Virus record (IMG/VR): IMGVR_UViG_3300013307_000055
Coordinates: 1-20,647 of that record
Strand: one strand, 5' to 3'
DNA: 20,647 bases
Source of the DNA: a virus
The first letter of the stretch is position 1; each line of letters starts with the position of its first letter. Positions 143 through 13,866 of this stretch are shown piece by piece. The notes beneath the pieces are model-generated. The model was not told where the DNA came from, searched no databases, and was given only the letters and a program-made list of their open reading frames with translations. The position numbers and the translations under genes were made by a program.

Positions 143-889
143 ATGCCTGACCACACCGGCCTGATCCCCCTCGGCGGGTCCGTGTACGCCCACCCGGACC
201 TGGCTCCGTACCTGGAGCCGGTGGGCAACGTGGAGCCGCACCCCGACAACCCGAGGCGCGGCGAGGTGGACGTCATCTGCGCCAGCCTGGAGACGAACGG
301 GCTGTACCGACCGCTCGTGGTCCAGAAGTCCACCCGGTTCGTCCTGGCCGGCAACCACACACTGCTGGCTCTGCTCCGGCTCGGAGCAGAGCAGGTGCCG
401 GTGACGTGGGTCGATGTGGACGAACGAGACGCCGCCCGGATCATCCTCGCCGACAACCGGTCCAGTGATCTGGGCGGCTACGACGTGACTGCTCTGGCCG
501 AGGTGATGAACAGCCTCGGGCCGGACGCCTTCGTGGGGACCGGCTACGCCGAGGCCGACCTGGACCAACTCCTGGTGGACCTCCAGTCCGCCGCCGAAGT
601 CTCCAAGAACGCCTCCGGCTACTACGAGGCCGTGCAGGAAGCGATGGGCCACCAGACCGACGCCGAGGCCGAGTGGGTCGGGATGCCGGAGTACGAGCGC
701 GGCGACACCAACGCGTACCGGCAGATCCTCGTGTCCTTCGCCAACGCCGAGGACGTGGAGGAGTTCGCCAAGCGTCTCGACATGCACCTGACCCCCAAGA
801 CTCGGTACCTGTGGTTCCCGCAGCACGAACGGGACATCACCATCGCGCTCCGCTACCAGCAGGAGCAGGAGCAGGCGGCAGTGGGATGA
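143..889 (+). CDS. ParB-like nuclease/NTPase-fold protein with a second conserved C-terminal domain
   Basis: This 248-residue protein has an N-terminal ParB/sulfiredoxin-type domain at about residues 25-110. Visible elements are the DNPR segment (residues 35-38), the strand ending in LAGNHT (68-73, in the place of the GxxRxxA box), and ADNRSSDLGGYD (103-114), which is common in phage ParB-like proteins. The canonical GERR box is replaced by GNHT, so classical CTP-dependent partition is unlikely. A second segment, about 177-232 (EWVGMPEYE, then ILVSF, then LTPKTRYLWFPQ), looks like a separate domain seen downstream of ParB folds in other phage proteins. The ATG at 143 follows GAGGAG at 128-133. 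The stop overlaps the glycosyltransferase start (ATGA), so the two are probably translationally coupled. A role in genome handling or base modification is inferred from context only. Confidence 0.8.
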   Translation: MPDHTGLIPLGGSVYAHPDLAPYLEPVGNVEPHPDNPRRGEVDVICASLETNGLYRPLVVQKSTRFVLAGNHTLLALLRLGAEQVPVTWVDVDERDAARIILADNRSSDLGGYDVTALAEVMNSLGPDAFVGTGYAEADLDQLLVDLQSAAEVSKNASGYYEAVQEAMGHQTDAEAEWVGMPEYERGDTNAYRQILVSFANAEDVEEFAKRLDMHLTPKTRYLWFPQHERDITIALRYQQEQEQAAVG

Positions 890-1830
890 CCGGCCAGGCC
901 GAGGAGGATCTGACCCGGCCCCGGTTCCCCCTCTACATACCGTCCAAGGGCAGGCCCACGCGGAGCTACACCTCACGGGCTCTGACCACGATGGGCCTGG
1001 CCCACACCATCGTGGTGGAGGAGCAGGAGCGCGACGCCTACGAGGAGCAGTACGGCGACAACCCACTGGTGACGCTGGTCAACCTCGACCCGGCCTACCA
1101 ACGGTCGTACGACACCTGCGACCGGTACGGCTCCACCAAGAGCCGTGGTCCTGGACCAGCCCGCAACATGATCTGGGACATGGCGATTGACGCCGGAGCC
1201 GAATGGCATTGGGTCATGGACGACAACATCTACTGGTGGTTCCGCTTCACCGACAACCGTCTGATCCGGCTCGGTGACGGCACCGGGTTCCGCGCCATGG
1301 AGGACTTCACCCTCCGCTACGACAACGTGGGCATGGCAGGCCCGAACTACTACATGTTCGTCGCCGCCCGGTCCTCGTACCCGCCGTTCGTGACCAACAC
1401 CCGCATCTACTCCTGCAACCTCATCCGGAACGATCTGCCCTTCCGGTGGCGCGCCCGCTACAACGAGGACACCGACCTGTCGCTCCGGATCTTGAAGTCG
1501 GGACTCTGCACGATCCAGTTCAACGCGTTCCTGTCCAAGAAGACCCCGACCCAGATCGACAAGGGCGGCAACACCGGGGAGTTCTACGAGAAGGAAGGGA
1601 CGCTCGCCAAGTCCCTGATGCTGGTCCGGCTCCACCCGGACGTGGCTCGGGTCACCAAGCGGTTCGGGCGCACCCACCACTTCGTGGACTACCGACCGTT
1701 CAAGGCCATGCCGTTGCATCGCCGACCAGACGCCGCGATCCCCACCGAGGACCCGTACCGGATGAAGTTGGTGGAGGTCACCCCCGAACCCTGGAGCCTG
1801 CCCAATGGCCGAAACGCCGTACGACGCTGA
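886..1830 (+). CDS. TET-associated/GREB1-type glycosyltransferase (TAGT-like)
   Basis: This is a 314-residue GT-A-like glycosyltransferase. The start is ATG 886, which overlaps the ParB-like stop; an upstream in-frame start would lie wholly inside the ParB gene. Features that point to the TAGT/GREB1 family are LYIPSKGR near the N-terminus (residues 16-23), the VVEEQE strand (43-48), GPARN (90-94), then WHWVMDDNI (107-115), whose acidic pair D112-D113 sits in the DxD nucleotide-sugar/metal position. NEDTDLSLR (193-201) carries further acidic residues likely to be in the active site. TAGT proteins were predicted to add sugars to 5-hydroxymethylated bases made by phage TET/JBP enzymes. No TET/JBP gene lies in this window, so DNA as the substrate is an inference. 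The 3' end overlaps the next gene by 26 bases. A glycosyltransferase acting on another target is the alternative. Confidence 0.78.
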   Translation: MTGQAEEDLTRPRFPLYIPSKGRPTRSYTSRALTTMGLAHTIVVEEQERDAYEEQYGDNPLVTLVNLDPAYQRSYDTCDRYGSTKSRGPGPARNMIWDMAIDAGAEWHWVMDDNIYWWFRFTDNRLIRLGDGTGFRAMEDFTLRYDNVGMAGPNYYMFVAARSSYPPFVTNTRIYSCNLIRNDLPFRWRARYNEDTDLSLRILKSGLCTIQFNAFLSKKTPTQIDKGGNTGEFYEKEGTLAKSLMLVRLHPDVARVTKRFGRTHHFVDYRPFKAMPLHRRPDAAIPTEDPYRMKLVEVTPEPWSLPNGRNAVRR

Positions 1831-2422
1831 CACTGCCGCGAAGGTGCTCAACCTTCGCCGTGGAGGAGTCCCGTTCGACGTCATCGCCGACCAACTCCGG
1901 CTCACGCCGGAAGCGGCCAAGGCCTACTTCGACAAGGCCCTCGGAGCCAGCGACCCGGCGTTCATGCGGGCTCTGGAGTCCGACCGGATGGACCGGCTCC
2001 ACTTCGCCATCTGGCCCAAGGCCATCAAGGGGGACCTGGACGCCATCGACCGGGTGGTGAAGTTGTCCGAACGCCGCGAGAACGTCTCGACGGTGCCGAA
2101 GGTCAACGACCACGCGCTGGTCCAGGCGTTCGACCGGGCAGTCCAGACCGCCACGGAGCTGCACGCCGAAGGGCTCGACGCCGCCTTGGTCGCGGCCGGC
2201 CGAACCGTGGCCGAGCGGATTGACGAAGCGAAGGCCACCAGCCAGGGACAGGAACTCACCAAGGCCCTGTACCTGTTGCCGCACCTGATGAACGTGCTCC
2301 GCGAGATGCAGGCGACCCCTGCCTCTCGTTCTGCCGCGAGGGCAGCAACCCCCGAGGCTCCGGAGCCGGACAGCAAGTTGGCGCAGCTCCGAGCGATCCG
2401 GCAGAAGCGGCCAGCCGGATGA
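1805..2422 (+). CDS. terS: Probable terminase small subunit
   Basis: This 205-residue, mostly helical, charged protein starts at ATG 1805 inside the end of the glycosyltransferase gene. The N-terminal 45 residues (AAKVLNLRRGGVPFDVIADQ, followed by LTPEAAKAYF) read like a helix-turn-helix of the type small terminases use to bind the packaging site. The rest (about 60-165) is helical and suits ring assembly. The C-terminus is alanine- and proline-rich and ends in a basic tail (IRQKRPAG) that could contact the large subunit. Position just before the large terminase, with two small genes between, supports the call. Small terminases diverge strongly, so this rests on the HTH-like start plus synteny. 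The stop overlaps the next ATG (ATGA). Confidence 0.65.
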   Translation: MAETPYDADTAAKVLNLRRGGVPFDVIADQLRLTPEAAKAYFDKALGASDPAFMRALESDRMDRLHFAIWPKAIKGDLDAIDRVVKLSERRENVSTVPKVNDHALVQAFDRAVQTATELHAEGLDAALVAAGRTVAERIDEAKATSQGQELTKALYLLPHLMNVLREMQATPASRSAARAATPEAPEPDSKLAQLRAIRQKRPAG

Positions 2423-2937: not shown

Positions 2938-4479
2938 ATGGCCGGAGCAGAGACACCCCGGCTGTTCACGCCGCCGCTTCGTGACCTGGCCGACCAGGAC
3001 AACAGCCTCGGCTACTCGGTGATCGCCTTCGCCGAGGACGTCATCGGCCTGGACCTGCTGCCATGGCAACGCTGGCTGCTGGTCCACATGCTTGAACTCC
3101 TGCCGGACGGACGCCTCCGGTTCCGCACCGTCGTGCTCCTCATGGCCCGCCAGAACGGCAAGTCCACCATCAGCCAGGTGCTCGCCTTGTGGTTCATGTA
3201 CGTGTGGGGTGCGGATCTGGTCATCGGTACCGCGCAGGACTTGGACATGGCGGAGGAGATTTGGCAGGGGGCCGTCGATCTGGTCGAGGAGACTCCAGAA
3301 CTCGACGCCCTCAAAGCCCATGTGTTCCGGGTCAACGGCAAGAAGCAACTGGTGCTCCGGACCGGCGAACGGTACAAGGTCCGGGCAGCGAACCGGCGTG
3401 CCGGTCGTGGCCTGACCGGCGACCTCGTACTGCTGGACGAGTTGCGCGAGCACCAGTCGTGGGACGCCTGGGGAGCCATCAGCAAGACCACGATGGCCCG
3501 AGACGACGCGCTCCTGTTCACCCTGTCCAACGCCGGAGACGCCTCCTCGGTGGTCCTCCGGTACCTGCGGAAGTTGGGCCACGCCGCCCTCGGTGACCCG
3601 GACGGGATCAACAAGGCCGACGAGGCAGATCCGGCCACCGGCCTGGACCCGACCGACGAGGTGGACGTAGACGAGGACACGCTCGGACTGTTCGAGTGGT
3701 CTGCTCCACCCGACTGCGGGCTCCGCGACCGGGAGGGGTGGGGCCAGGCGAATCCTGCGCTCGGCTACACCATCGCCGAGAGGACCATCGCCGCCGCCGT
3801 TCGTACGGATCCCGAATGGGTGTTCCGCACCGAGGTGCTGTGCCAGTGGTCCGAGGGGACTCTGGAGGGGCCGTTCCCTGCCGGAGCCTGGGAGGCCTCG
3901 GCGGACAGGAACTCCGTTCGGGATCCGTCATCCGCCGTTGCGCTGTGCGTGGACACCTCGTGGGACCGGTCGGTGACGTGCATCGGCCTGGCCGCACTCC
4001 GCGAGGACGGCCTGGCCCACGTCGAGGTGATCGCCCGTCGAGCCGGAACCGAGTGGGTCGCCGAGTGGTTGACCAGCGACGAGCGTCTGCCGGAAGTCCG
4101 GGGCGCACCCGTCGCCGTGCAGTCACGCGGAGCTCCCGTCTCCTCTCTCATCCCCGACCTGTACGCCGCGAGGGTGTCGGTCACGGAGTGGGCCGGACCA
4201 GCCCTCGGTGTTGCGACCGGCGAGTTCTACGACCGGATCCGAGCCGCCATCGGCGAAGGCTCCGGCCAGGCCCAACTACGGCACCGCGACCAGCCTCTCC
4301 TCAACGTCGCCGCCGCCACAGCCGCCACCCGACCCATCGGCGACTCGTGGCTGTGGGACCGACGCCGGTCGCCGACCGACGTCTCCCCGCTCATCGCCGT
4401 GACCGGTGCCCTCTGGTGCCTGGCCCACGGTCGTCCCCGTACGAGCGCCTACGAAACCCGCCGATTGGAGGTGCTGTGA
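2938..4479 (+). CDS. terL: Terminase large subunit (ATPase and nuclease)
   Basis: This 513-residue protein is the packaging motor that translocates DNA into the prohead and cuts the concatemer. The ATPase half shows an adenine-binding LPWQRW (residues 41-46), a Walker A-like MARQNGKST (69-77), Walker B LVLLDE (163-168, with D167 and catalytic E168) and a coupling motif TLSNAG (195-200). The nuclease half starts near residue 330, with ALCVDTSWDRS (335-345) holding the first metal-binding aspartate (D339). Further acidic residues lie towards the C-terminus. Start ATG 2938 was chosen over in-frame upstream codons inside the previous gene; it has a weak AAGG 9 bases upstream and leaves a 4-base gap. 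Length is normal for the family. Confidence 0.95.
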   Translation: MAGAETPRLFTPPLRDLADQDNSLGYSVIAFAEDVIGLDLLPWQRWLLVHMLELLPDGRLRFRTVVLLMARQNGKSTISQVLALWFMYVWGADLVIGTAQDLDMAEEIWQGAVDLVEETPELDALKAHVFRVNGKKQLVLRTGERYKVRAANRRAGRGLTGDLVLLDELREHQSWDAWGAISKTTMARDDALLFTLSNAGDASSVVLRYLRKLGHAALGDPDGINKADEADPATGLDPTDEVDVDEDTLGLFEWSAPPDCGLRDREGWGQANPALGYTIAERTIAAAVRTDPEWVFRTEVLCQWSEGTLEGPFPAGAWEASADRNSVRDPSSAVALCVDTSWDRSVTCIGLAALREDGLAHVEVIARRAGTEWVAEWLTSDERLPEVRGAPVAVQSRGAPVSSLIPDLYAARVSVTEWAGPALGVATGEFYDRIRAAIGEGSGQAQLRHRDQPLLNVAAATAATRPIGDSWLWDRRRSPTDVSPLIAVTGALWCLAHGRPRTSAYETRRLEVL

Positions 4480-4482
4480 CAG

Positions 4483-6426
4483 ATGGGCATGTTCGACCGG
4501 TTCAAGAGGACCACGACCGTCAACACCTACGGGATCGGTGACACCTCCGAGGCGTTCTACGGCGCGTGGCAGATGAGCCGCGAGGAGTACGAGCGCATCA
4601 TGGGCCTGTCGCCCGCCGACATGTGGCGGACGCAGCCCTACCTCCGGACCGTCGTCACCTTCCTGGCGCGGAACATCGCGCAGTGCGCGCTCCAGACCTT
4701 CCAGCGTGTCAGCGACACCGACCGCCGCCGCCTCCACGACGGGGTGGCCGGCATCATCGCCCGACCCAACGCCGCCACCACGTCCTACGAGTTGGTGTAC
4801 GGCCTGGTGGCGGACCTGGCCCTCTACGACGTGGCGTACCTGCTCATGTCCGAGGACCCCGACAACTACCTGGCCCGCCTGCCGTTCTCGTGGGTCTGGC
4901 CCAAGGGTGGCGACACCTACGCGCCCGACCACTACGAGGTCCGGATGAACGACCGAGGCGAGTCGGTCATCATCCCCGCCGATCAGGTGCTCGTGTTCCA
5001 CGGCTGGCACCCCGGCAACCTCCGGTACGGCTCCTCGCCGGTCCACGCCCTCAAAGAGATCCTGGCGGAGCAGGTCCAAGCCGCCATGTACCGGCAGAGC
5101 GTGTGGGCCAGGGGCGGCAAGGTCGGAGCTGTGCTGACGCGGCCACCCGACGCGCCCGAGTGGAGCGATGAGGCACGCCGCCAGTTCAAGCGCGATTGGG
5201 AGTCCCGGTACTCCGGCTCTGGTCCAGGCGTCGGCGGCACGCCGCTCCTGGAGGACGGCATGTCCCTCAACCGGGTGGACTTCTCCGCCCACGAGATGGA
5301 GTGGGTCGAGGGCTCCCGCCTGGCCTTGAACACCGTGGCGTCGTGCTACCACGTCAACCCGACCATGATCGGGCTCCTCGACAACGCCAACTACTCCAAC
5401 GTGCGCGAGTTCCGGCGCATGTTGTACGGCGACACCCTCGGGCCGGTCATCGCGCAGATCGAGGACCGGCTCAACACGTTCTACGTCCCCCTCGTAGACG
5501 ACCGCGCCTCGGTGTACCTGGAGTTCAACATCGACGAGAAGTTGCAGGGGTCCTTCGAGGAGCAGCAGTCGGCGCTCTCGACCTCAGTTGGCCGGCCGTG
5601 GATGACCGCCAACGAAGCACGCGCACTCCGCAACATGCCCGCCATCGACGGCCAGGGAGCCGACGAGTTGGTGACCCCTCTGAACGTCCTCGTCGGAGGC
5701 CAGGCCTCACCCACGGACTCTGCTCCGCCGAAGGCTCTGCCGGTGGGCACGAAGGCCGGGAACCTGTACGCCCTCAAAGCGCGGGTGACGGACCGGCAGG
5801 TGGCGAAGTTGAACGAGGTGCTGTCGTCGTTCTTCCACCGGCAGTCCAAGGCGGTCCTCGCCCGGATCGGAGCAGGCCGCGACGACTGGTGGGACGGCGA
5901 CCGGTGGGACGGCGAACTCGCCTCGGACCTGCACGTCACCTACCTGGAGGTGACCAGCGTCCTCGGGAAGGCGGAGGCCCGGTCGCTGGGGTTCCACGAG
6001 GACGACTACGAACCGACCGCGACCCTGCACTACCTCCAGGCCGTCGCCGCCCGGTACGCGGCCAACATCAACTCCACCACCCACTCGCAGCTCCAGACCG
6101 CCGTGGAGGATCCGGAGCAGGACCCGGCCTCCGTGTTCGACGTCGCCACCGACAGCCGCGCCGCTGGAGTCGCCACCGGGATGGGCACCTTCCTCGCCGG
6201 GTTCGCCACCCACGAAGCGGCCTCGCAGATCGCCCGCGCCCACAACGTCGAGCCCACCAAGACGTGGGTCACCGGCACCAACCCGCGTGAGTCCCACGCG
6301 GCTCTGGACGGCGAGACGGTCGGACTGGACGACTCGTTCAGCAACGGCCTGTCGTGGCCTGGAGCCGCAGGCAACGACGCCGCCGACACGGCCAACTGCA
6401 ACTGCTCGGTCGTCATCAACCTCTGA
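4483..6426 (+). CDS. Portal protein fused to a MuF-like head morphogenesis domain
   Basis: This 647-residue protein joins two head proteins. Residues 1 to about 415 form an HK97-type portal, the dodecameric ring through which DNA enters; typical stretches are PYLRTVVTFLARNIA near residue 50, the clip region around VLVFHGWHPGN, and AMYRQSVWARGGKVGAVL in the helical stem. After a proline-rich linker (about 405-425), residues 428-647 resemble the MuF/gp7 minor head domain, ending in the diagnostic RESHAALDGETV (602-613) and the cysteine pair CNC (639-641). The ATG at 4483 has GGAGG at 4466-4470; a second ATG at 4489 is too far from it. Portal-MuF fusions occur in other actinophages, so this is probably genuine; no frameshift is needed. 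Confidence 0.93.
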   Translation: MGMFDRFKRTTTVNTYGIGDTSEAFYGAWQMSREEYERIMGLSPADMWRTQPYLRTVVTFLARNIAQCALQTFQRVSDTDRRRLHDGVAGIIARPNAATTSYELVYGLVADLALYDVAYLLMSEDPDNYLARLPFSWVWPKGGDTYAPDHYEVRMNDRGESVIIPADQVLVFHGWHPGNLRYGSSPVHALKEILAEQVQAAMYRQSVWARGGKVGAVLTRPPDAPEWSDEARRQFKRDWESRYSGSGPGVGGTPLLEDGMSLNRVDFSAHEMEWVEGSRLALNTVASCYHVNPTMIGLLDNANYSNVREFRRMLYGDTLGPVIAQIEDRLNTFYVPLVDDRASVYLEFNIDEKLQGSFEEQQSALSTSVGRPWMTANEARALRNMPAIDGQGADELVTPLNVLVGGQASPTDSAPPKALPVGTKAGNLYALKARVTDRQVAKLNEVLSSFFHRQSKAVLARIGAGRDDWWDGDRWDGELASDLHVTYLEVTSVLGKAEARSLGFHEDDYEPTATLHYLQAVAARYAANINSTTHSQLQTAVEDPEQDPASVFDVATDSRAAGVATGMGTFLAGFATHEAASQIARAHNVEPTKTWVTGTNPRESHAALDGETVGLDDSFSNGLSWPGAAGNDAADTANCNCSVVINL

Positions 6427-11778: not shown

Positions 11779-13866
11779 ATGGCCGAAATCGGCACCGCCT
11801 ACGTGACGTTGCTCCCGTCCGCGAAGGGCTTCGGAGCTGCGACCGCGAAGGAACTCGGCTCCTCCGGAGTCACCGGGGGCACGACCGCCAGCAAGGGGTT
11901 CAAGGGCGCGTTCACCAAGGGCCTGGCCGGACTCGGCGGAGCCATGGTCGGGCTGTTCGCCGTGGACAAGGTGAAGGACTTCTTCGTCTCGGCGGTCGGT
12001 GAGGCCAGGGAGTCGCAGAAGGTGTCGGCGATCACCGCGCAGGTCATCAAGACCACGGGCGGAGCCGCGCAGGTGTCTGCCGCGCAGGTCGGGAACCTGG
12101 CGACGGCCATCTCCAACAAGACAGGCATTGACGACGAGGCGGTCCAGACCGGAGCCAACCTCCTGCTCACGTTCAAGAACATCAGGGACGAGGCAGGCAA
12201 GGGCAACGACATCTTCGACCAGACGACGCAGATCATGACCGACATGGCCTCGGCCATGGGCAAGGATCCCAAGACCGCTGCCATCGGCCTGGGCAAGGCT
12301 CTGAACGACCCGACCAAGGGCGTGTCTGCTCTGTCCAGGGTGGGCGTCACGTTCGACGCGACCCAGACGAAGCTCATCAAGAAGTTGCAGGAGTCCGGCG
12401 ACACGATGGGCGCGCAGAAGATCATCTTGAAGGAACTCAAATCCGAGTTCGGTGGCACGGCTGCTGCCAGCGCCACGGCAGGAGAGAAGGCGGGAGTCGC
12501 CTTCGGGAACCTCAAAGAGCAGATCGGCACCGCGCTCCTGCCGGTCATCGACAAGGTGGAGACAGTCCTTGCCGACAAGGTGATCCCTGCCGTCTCCACG
12601 TTCCTGACGCAGATGCAGACCGGCAAGGGAGCCGGAGGCCAGTTCGCCTCCGCCGTCAAGACGCTGTGGTCCGTCCTGGAGGACTTGTGGGGAATCCTCC
12701 AGCCCATCGGCAAGTTCCTGATCGACCACATGCCCATCGTGTACGGCATCGCGGCGGCGTTCCTCGTGTGGGAAGTGGCGACCATCGCCATGAACGTGGT
12801 GTCGGCCATCCAGTTGGGGCTCCTCATGCTCCAGACCCCCGGCACCCTGCTCTACGCCGCCGCCTCCGGCATCGCGGCCACCGCGACCGCCGTGTGGGCC
12901 GCAGCCACCTGGCTCCTCGCCACCCCTCTCGGGCTCATCGTGCTGGCGATCCTGGCGCTCATCGTCGTGGTCATCCTCGTCATCAAGTACCACAAGCAGA
13001 TCGGGGCGTTCATCGCCAAGGTGTGGGGCAAGATCAAGGACGCCGTGGTCGCGGCCTGGCACGGAGTCACCGGAGCGATCAGTCGGGCGTGGTCCAAGAT
13101 CAAGTCCACGATCACCAACGCCGTCGCGTCGGTCATCGACTTCATCAAGAAGCACTGGGGTCTGATCGTCTCCATCCTCGGAGGACCGTTCGCCGCCGCC
13201 ATCGTGGTGCTGGTCAAGAACTGGGGGAAGATCAAGAGCGCCATCCGGAACGCCTTGACCGCGCTCGGGCAGATGATCCGGTCGGCCTGGCAGAGGATCG
13301 TCGGCCTCGTCGCGCAGGCAGGCCAGAACCTGTGGTCCGCCGTGGCCGCGATCCCCGGCAAGTTGATGGGGCTCGCGTCCCGCTTCGGTTCGGCCGGCCG
13401 GGCCATCATCGGCGCGTTCGTCAACGGGTTGAGGAACGCCGGGTCGCTGGTGTCTGACATTGCCGGGAACGTGGGCCACGCCCTGTCCGGCCTCATCAAC
13501 TCCGCCATCGACCACCTCAACTCGGCTCTGGAGTTCTCCGTCAAGGTCGGACCCAAGTCGTTCGGGATCAACCCGCCTGACATTCCGCACGTCTCCCTGG
13601 CGACGGGCGGTCGGGCCAGAGGATCCGTGGTCGAGGTCGGCGACGGCAACCAGTGGGAGTCGATCATCCCCGACCGGCTCATGGTCCAGGCGCTCACCGC
13701 CGCCGCGTCTGCCGGTGCAGCTCCGAGCGGAGCCCGTGGGCCGGACCGGCTCCGGCTGGTCGTGGACGGGTACGAGTTCAACGCCTACGTGGACTCCCGT
13801 GCCGACGACCGCGTGTCGTCTGCACAGAGCCTCCAGGACGAGCGGGGGCGGTCCCGGTGGCGGTAA
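11779..13866 (+). CDS. Tape measure protein
   Basis: This 695-residue protein sets tail length and is ejected with the DNA. The N-terminal part (IGTAYVTLLPSAKGF, then a helical region with GDTMGAQKIILKELKSEF) matches the tape-measure core. A long hydrophobic stretch (about residues 315-410) has three or four potential membrane segments, followed by amphipathic lysine/tryptophan helices (WGKIKDAV, WSKIKSTI, WGKIKSAIRNAL) and a glycine-rich end with WESIIPDRLMVQALTAA. At about 1.5 angstrom per residue, a tail near 100 nm is expected. The start has GAGGAGGAG at 11764-11772. The last 10 bases overlap the next gene. Confidence 0.92.
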   Translation: MAEIGTAYVTLLPSAKGFGAATAKELGSSGVTGGTTASKGFKGAFTKGLAGLGGAMVGLFAVDKVKDFFVSAVGEARESQKVSAITAQVIKTTGGAAQVSAAQVGNLATAISNKTGIDDEAVQTGANLLLTFKNIRDEAGKGNDIFDQTTQIMTDMASAMGKDPKTAAIGLGKALNDPTKGVSALSRVGVTFDATQTKLIKKLQESGDTMGAQKIILKELKSEFGGTAAASATAGEKAGVAFGNLKEQIGTALLPVIDKVETVLADKVIPAVSTFLTQMQTGKGAGGQFASAVKTLWSVLEDLWGILQPIGKFLIDHMPIVYGIAAAFLVWEVATIAMNVVSAIQLGLLMLQTPGTLLYAAASGIAATATAVWAAATWLLATPLGLIVLAILALIVVVILVIKYHKQIGAFIAKVWGKIKDAVVAAWHGVTGAISRAWSKIKSTITNAVASVIDFIKKHWGLIVSILGGPFAAAIVVLVKNWGKIKSAIRNALTALGQMIRSAWQRIVGLVAQAGQNLWSAVAAIPGKLMGLASRFGSAGRAIIGAFVNGLRNAGSLVSDIAGNVGHALSGLINSAIDHLNSALEFSVKVGPKSFGINPPDIPHVSLATGGRARGSVVEVGDGNQWESIIPDRLMVQALTAAASAGAAPSGARGPDRLRLVVDGYEFNAYVDSRADDRVSSAQSLQDERGRSRWR

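Follow-up and report, generated by a model that had tools for sequence, protein, structure and literature searches.

A ParB-like protein and a TAGT-family glycosyltransferase as a probable DNA hypermodification pair ahead of the terminase genes of a phage

Two coupled genes at the left end of the window (the whole IMG/VR contig, 20,647 b) encode a ParB-like protein and a glycosyltransferase of the TAGT family. We put at roughly 75% the probability that they form a DNA hypermodification pair, which occupies a modular slot between the ParB-like and terminase genes of an actinobacterial phage; the cassette probably decorates the viral genome with sugar. An earlier note on this DNA had proposed genome hypermodification, and this reading is well supported by the Pfam TAGT match, the GT-A fold, the partner domain borne by the ParB-like protein and the modification genes found in the slot of sister phages. 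The main new element appears to be this partner domain, for which we found no description. The vague family label TET-associated glycosyltransferase thereby becomes a system of two parts that can be tested and has a defined partner domain. Solitary TAGT genes of undefined function are reported for 288 of 753 phage genomes (PMC13216743); for these the cassette supplies a setting, a putative partner and putative routes to the donor.

The glycosyltransferase and its partner domain

All window genes described here lie on the plus strand. The ParB-like gene (143..889, 248 aa) is preceded by just 142 b, which hold the C-terminal piece of a gene truncated by the contig start (2..139); its translation is Cys-rich (CPLC..CVFC) and reads as zinc-ribbon-like. 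An ATGA stop-start overlap (886..889) joins the ParB-like gene to the TAGT gene (886..1830, 314 aa), which in turn overlaps the gene for the terminase small subunit (1805..2422; Pfam Terminase_6, 3.1e-15) by 26 nt. The terminase large subunit (2938..4479; phrog_9, 1.2e-83; 133 related IMG/VR stretches) and a portal protein with a C-terminal MuF-like part (4483..6426; Pfam Phage_portal, 8.6e-64; Phage_Mu_F, 6.5e-4, sub-threshold) follow. Thus the stop-start coupling and the position right before the terminase genes, both claimed earlier, are confirmed. All relatives of the terminase large subunit found among bacterial and archaeal genomes come from actinobacteria, and the portal is 42-47% identical to portal-MuF fusions of Arthrobacter phages; the predicted host of the virus is therefore an actinobacterium.

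The second protein of the cassette is a TAGT-family GT-A glycosyltransferase. It matches the Pfam TAGT model (PF20691) with an E-value of 8.2e-40 and 137.4 bits against a cut-off of 27.5, over profile positions 1-201 of 205, and phrog_842 with 1.7e-48. Its AlphaFold model (pLDDT 86.8, pTM 0.86) matches GT-A glycosyltransferases among PDB structures (GnT-I with 1e-4, GLT25D1, ppGalNAcT2 and SunS) and TAGT-domain phage proteins in BFVD, down to 1.7e-26, which agrees with the TAGT-type assignment made previously; sequence searches of PDB with the protein or with a 24-member TAGT profile gave no match. Homologues at 28-58% identity were found in 24 phage records and 28 IMG/VR loci, and a scan of 84,980 bacterial and archaeal genomes produced 188 TAGT pattern matches, none of them a true relative. 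In Vibrio phage henriette 12B8 a TAGT match with 49% identity (L032:8001-8846; L numbers designate loci) falls where the record has no annotated gene.

The three motifs pointed out in the earlier note are all present. In IPSKGR (937..954, aa 18-23), S20 and R23 are invariant and K21 is conserved in more than 90% of 24 sequences. The acidic motif DDN (1219..1227, aa 112-114) is invariant in 24/24, as are N193, E194, D195 and D197 of NEDTD (1462..1476, aa 193-197). The DxD-like DDN is likely a metal and sugar-nucleotide site, and NEDTD is likely an xED-like motif providing the catalytic base. Given the Pfam match, the homologues and acidic motifs invariant in 24/24, the TAGT observation is not due to chance.

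The ParB-like protein scores only 16.9 bits with Pfam ParB_N (aa 29-105), under the cut-off of 26.3, and matches a PHROG ParB model with 1e-39. Its ParB/Srx-fold domain (aa 24-145, 212..577) lies in a confidently modeled region (pLDDT 88-98 across aa 11-150), and the model matches ParB/Noc CTPase structures (Foldseek E-value 6e-5, probability 1.00); where the ParB box usually lies, the sequence is AGNHT. A plasmid-style partition role was considered and set aside, because this ParB family adjoins modification genes before terminase.

When the ParB-like protein was searched against TAGT loci, it matched near most TAGT genes by its C-terminal ~70 residues only. We term this region (aa 174-242, 662..868; consensus EWxGMPEF..IxVxF..FxxLIGQ..TxKTKSIWxP) the TAGT-partner domain. 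It occurs in three architectures: as the tail of a ParB protein (the window, L002, L004, L006, L008 and L009), as a separate gene of 75-140 aa, mostly directly upstream of the TAGT gene (L010, L012, L014-L019 and L023-L025), and as the N-terminus of the TAGT protein itself (L003; Vibrio phages 1.076.O and 1.124.O, POP12, Kuja, PTm1 and Aeh1). In L011 the separate gene lies downstream of the TAGT gene, and at some loci one or two genes split the two, a methylase among them in L013, L020 and L028. Where a contig extends around its TAGT gene, the domain is present at 24/24 loci; the other four, L005, L007, L026 and L029, start no more than 66 nt from their TAGT match. Conversely, a scan with one stand-alone member as query (the domain alignment being too little conserved to serve as one) identified 52 viral loci, all 52 with a TAGT gene beside the domain, adjacent or overlapping in 50/52. 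Against 50,697 phage records the window domain matches TAGT proteins only, and searches of Pfam, PHROGs and PDB returned nothing credible; the corresponding part of the ParB-like protein model is mostly of low confidence. From the 24/24 and 52/52 co-occurrence and the three architectures, the domain emerges as a dedicated companion of this TAGT subfamily, and by carrying it the ParB-like protein is linked to the TAGT. As a separate observation, the methyltransferase between the stand-alone domain and the TAGT is of N6/N4 type in L028 and of class-I type in L013; together with L020, these loci hint at a three-part system.

GT-A enzymes also glycosylate proteins and peptides, including several of the PDB matches of the window TAGT, a fact that counts against DNA hypermodification. 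The TAGT might thus glycosylate a virion protein (capsid or tail), its place near terminase, portal and capsid genes reflecting late-gene expression. We regard this as unlikely: the fold is indeed shared with the protein glycosyltransferases GLT25D1, ppGalNAcT and SunS, but the nearest curated family is DNA-linked, and it is a ParB-type protein to which the partner domain is joined. The TAGT gene of Vibrio phage 1.076.O lies between portal and head-morphogenesis genes, but many homologues are located away from structural genes, for example in Vibrio phage henriette 12B8, where the neighbors are DNA clamp-loader and polymerase genes, and the slot of sister phages holds DNA-modifying enzymes.

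The interval between ParB-like and terminase genes

The closest relatives of the window terminase (70-74% identity) share an arrangement in which a ParB-like gene is followed by a variable segment and then by the genes for the small and large terminase subunits. In the window this slot contains TAGT alone. In L041 the ParB is fused to an N6/N4 DNA methylase; L042, L046 and L048 carry a DpdA-like gene together with QueE/FolE/QueC or QueD (in L046 and L048 the gene is called DpdA-like from a weak NCBIfam match to L046, 0.003, and their mutual similarity). TET/JBP with an amino-acid:DNA transferase (ADDT) and an FAD oxidoreductase occupies L043 and L045, and TET/JBP with a weaker ADDT match and an Asp/Asn-hydroxylase-like gene occupies L050. 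Among isolated phages, Mycobacterium phage Stinger combines ParB, TET/JBP and terminase, and Gordonia phage Mariokart combines ParB, an ABC/GNAT protein (Mom-like by inference) and terminase. We note that Stinger gp2 (L037:776-1744), labeled queuine tRNA-ribosyltransferase in RefSeq, has a below-cut-off Pfam Tet_JBP match (4e-6) and dioxygenase-type HxD...H...R residues, so the label is likely a misannotation.

A survey covered the 80 ParB loci closest to L045; in 63 a terminase large subunit lies downstream. A modification gene was found in the ParB or in the ParB-terminase interval at 58/63 loci versus 2/26 ParB-less terminase relatives (Fisher 1e-14), figures obtained with queries drawn partly from the same loci, methylase fusions partly called by motif, fragmentary contigs and a small control. 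After clustering the ParBs at 85% the count is 46/51 (6e-13), and 39/51 (5e-9) once motif-based methylase calls are removed. These counts suggest that DNA-modification chemistry in such phages may be sought between ParB and terminase. No surveyed locus has both TET and TAGT, in numbers too small to claim mutual exclusion from the slot. The ParB, modification and terminase arrangement is partly published; its TAGT version appears to be new.

Several further slots deserve mention. The ParB-terminase segments of L196, L224, L225, L235 and L240 have no modification gene recognized by our query set; their genes may stand for new base chemistries, or they may be plain spacer genes. At the left end of Arthrobacter phage Shrooms (L166, 1-6615), ParB genes alternate with PAPS-reductase and methyltransferase genes, possibly another modification chemistry.

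Seven contigs, namely the window, L004, L005, L006 (32% GC), L007, L008 and L026, have a TAGT gene directly ahead of the terminase genes, and their terminases belong to different PHROGs. In the TAGT tree, the seven terminase-linked sequences fall into a moderately supported group of 11 rows (84/79), the other rows being two loci that end just past the TAGT gene and two without terminase linkage; L004, L005 and L026 join the window at 97/93. One explanation is that the cassette acts in packaging, the ParB-like protein and TAGT marking or processing the packaging site and the sugar serving as a signal to the terminase. The place of TAGT right ahead of diverse terminases in these seven contigs and the 26-nt overlap with the small-subunit gene are in its favor, but the same partner domain also accompanies many related TAGTs that do not adjoin terminase, and unrelated chemistries occupy the same position, which suggests a convenient late-gene slot; we consider this role very unlikely. 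The tie to packaging proposed in the earlier note therefore holds as a real gene order that recurs with diverse terminases; a functional coupling of modification to packaging is at most a prediction from this order.

A second TAGT subfamily (motifs FILTHGRP and DDDY) also lies next to ParB (L204:1409-2275, L215:5919-6794, L229:1268-2134 and L226:7725-8630). It is placed between ParB and terminase in L204, L215 and L229, and L226 ends before terminase; its ParB partners differ from those of the first subfamily in their C-terminal part. In the closely similar pair L236 and L238, the order is ParB-domain gene, TAGT, a helix-turn-helix (terminase-small-subunit-like) gene and an NAD-epimerase. There, one stop-free frame (L236:6053-7618 and L238:4862-6427) combines another, divergent glycosyltransferase of TAGT-like type with a ParB domain and the partner domain, and a separate TAGT gene follows it; internal starts are possible.

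Sugar donor, source of the hydroxyl and proposed mechanism

Sugar-nucleotide genes lie beside several related TAGT genes: UDP-glucose dehydrogenases in L025 and L028, NAD-epimerases in L025, L215 and L236, and in L028 also a cytidylyltransferase and a cupin. These neighbors make a UDP-sugar the likely donor. By eye, the NAD-epimerase of L236 and L238 resembles UDP-xylose synthase; pentoses are known on phage cytosine (PMC13390438, PMC12838424), so a pentose is a possible sugar.

The family name implies a partnership with TET/JBP, one that membership by the Pfam model does not depend on, and the earlier note had remarked that no such gene is visible. Indeed, neither the 29 TAGT-bearing IMG/VR contigs (the window and 28 others, all fragments) nor the tested TAGT phages gave a TET/JBP match, in searches with Pfam Tet_JBP (no match) and a four-sequence phage TET profile, which recovered the positive control Stinger, itself part of the profile, with 1e-171. 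The implied partnership is thus not seen here; TET/JBP fills the same slot in sister phages and consequently looks like an alternative occupant. The 29 contigs, fragments as they are, also yielded no thymidylate-synthase-family gene and no C5-methylase match. C5-methylase plus TET was rejected as a source of the hydroxyl, with a single partial C5-methylase match, in Vibrio phage 1.124.O. Two matches to the tested 2OG-Fe(II) oxygenase family were found, both in one contig. These two aside, no enzyme that could make the hydroxyl is seen in the 29 contigs or in two ~48-kb phages with a fused domain-TAGT protein, a result that counts against DNA hypermodification. One of the side observations concerns L006, a low-GC contig with ParB-domain and TAGT genes, in which a 2OG-Fe(II) oxygenase (12783-13436; Pfam 2e-10) follows the terminase large subunit and is a possible hydroxylase for the L006 system.

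It is an even bet that the TAGT performs the last step of an ordinary hmC or hmU glycosylation pathway, with the hydroxyl-making enzyme (TET/JBP, a dNMP hydroxymethylase or another oxygenase) encoded elsewhere in the genome. The window is only a genome fragment, many IMG contigs are too short to judge the absence of a hydroxylase, hmC that already bears a modification is the substrate of T-even TAGTs (PMC13216743), and a thymidylate-synthase-family gene is present in 5/5 large TAGT phages tested. Weighing against this, two ~48-kb phages with a fused domain-TAGT protein (records marked partial genome) have no match to the thymidylate synthase family, TET or 2OG oxygenases, and the slot of sister phages tends to keep linked modification genes together. 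This pathway is compatible with a hypermodification pair and differs on the origin of the hydroxyl only, so that the two confidences overlap. More doubtful is a two-component DNA glycosylation without phage TET/JBP or dNMP hydroxymethylase, in which the sugar would go onto an unhydroxylated base or an unrecognized enzyme would make the hydroxyl, the partner domain being key.

Two of the thymidylate-synthase-family matches are split. In Pectobacterium phage POP12 (150787-151871) the match is in two pieces with a stop, and in Tenacibaculum phage PTm1 (199569-201143) it has a long in-frame insert, suggesting an intron, intein or inserted element.

Under the hypermodification reading, TAGT would move a sugar from a sugar nucleotide onto a hydroxylated base in phage DNA, an action modeled on T-even TAGTs that extend glucosyl-hmC. 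The ParB-like protein would bind TAGT through its C-terminal domain and bring it to DNA, perhaps spending NTP to give access, as reported for DpdB with DpdA; DpdB is a ParB-like ATPase that supports dPreQ0 insertion by DpdA and is dispensable in some clusters (PMC12839542). A likely benefit would be that the modified product shields the phage genome from host nucleases.

Comparison with known systems

The T-even TAGT (PF20691, beta-glucosyl-HMC-alpha-glucosyltransferase) adds glucose to glucosyl-hmC, and a model of the T6 enzyme was reported to have a GT-A fold (PMC13216743). The window protein shares with it the Pfam family, the GT-A fold and the acidic DDN and NED motifs. However, it represents a distinct subfamily with its own partner domain, adjoining ParB-like and terminase genes; it is barely like the T6 enzyme by sequence (E-value 0.01), and its chemistry may therefore differ. 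Unlike in the T-even system, no alpha-GT or beta-GT was noticed among the scanned window genes and no hydroxymethylase was seen in the window.

In mycobacteriophage CRB2, ParB/DpdB, DpdA and queC/D/E lie near terminase (PMC6392294), and dPreQ0 was measured in phage Rosebush (PMC6884629). These cassettes, like those of L042, L046 and L048, have the window order of a ParB-like gene, a modifying enzyme and terminase, whereas the window enzyme is a glycosyltransferase rather than a transglycosylase and its slot has no precursor-synthesis genes. The window ParB-like protein adjoins a DNA base-modifying enzyme as DpdB does, its TAGT being predicted to act on DNA; we do not file it as DpdB, because the adjacent enzyme is TAGT and not DpdA/TGT-like, and it may work alike.

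Genes 1-5 of Gordonia phage CaiB, located before terminase, include ParB, TET/JBP, a pyrophosphorylase and a kinase (PMC9302106). The window resembles CaiB (Gordonia DR phages), L043 and L045 in the slot, the order before terminase and the short stop-start overlaps, and differs in having TAGT instead of TET/JBP or ADDT and a different domain at the ParB C-terminus. Finally, the ParB-methyltransferase fusion of L041 likewise ties a ParB domain to a modifying activity just before terminase; there the N6/N4 methylase is part of the same protein, whereas in the window a small TAGT-specific domain is attached to the ParB and the enzyme has a gene of its own.
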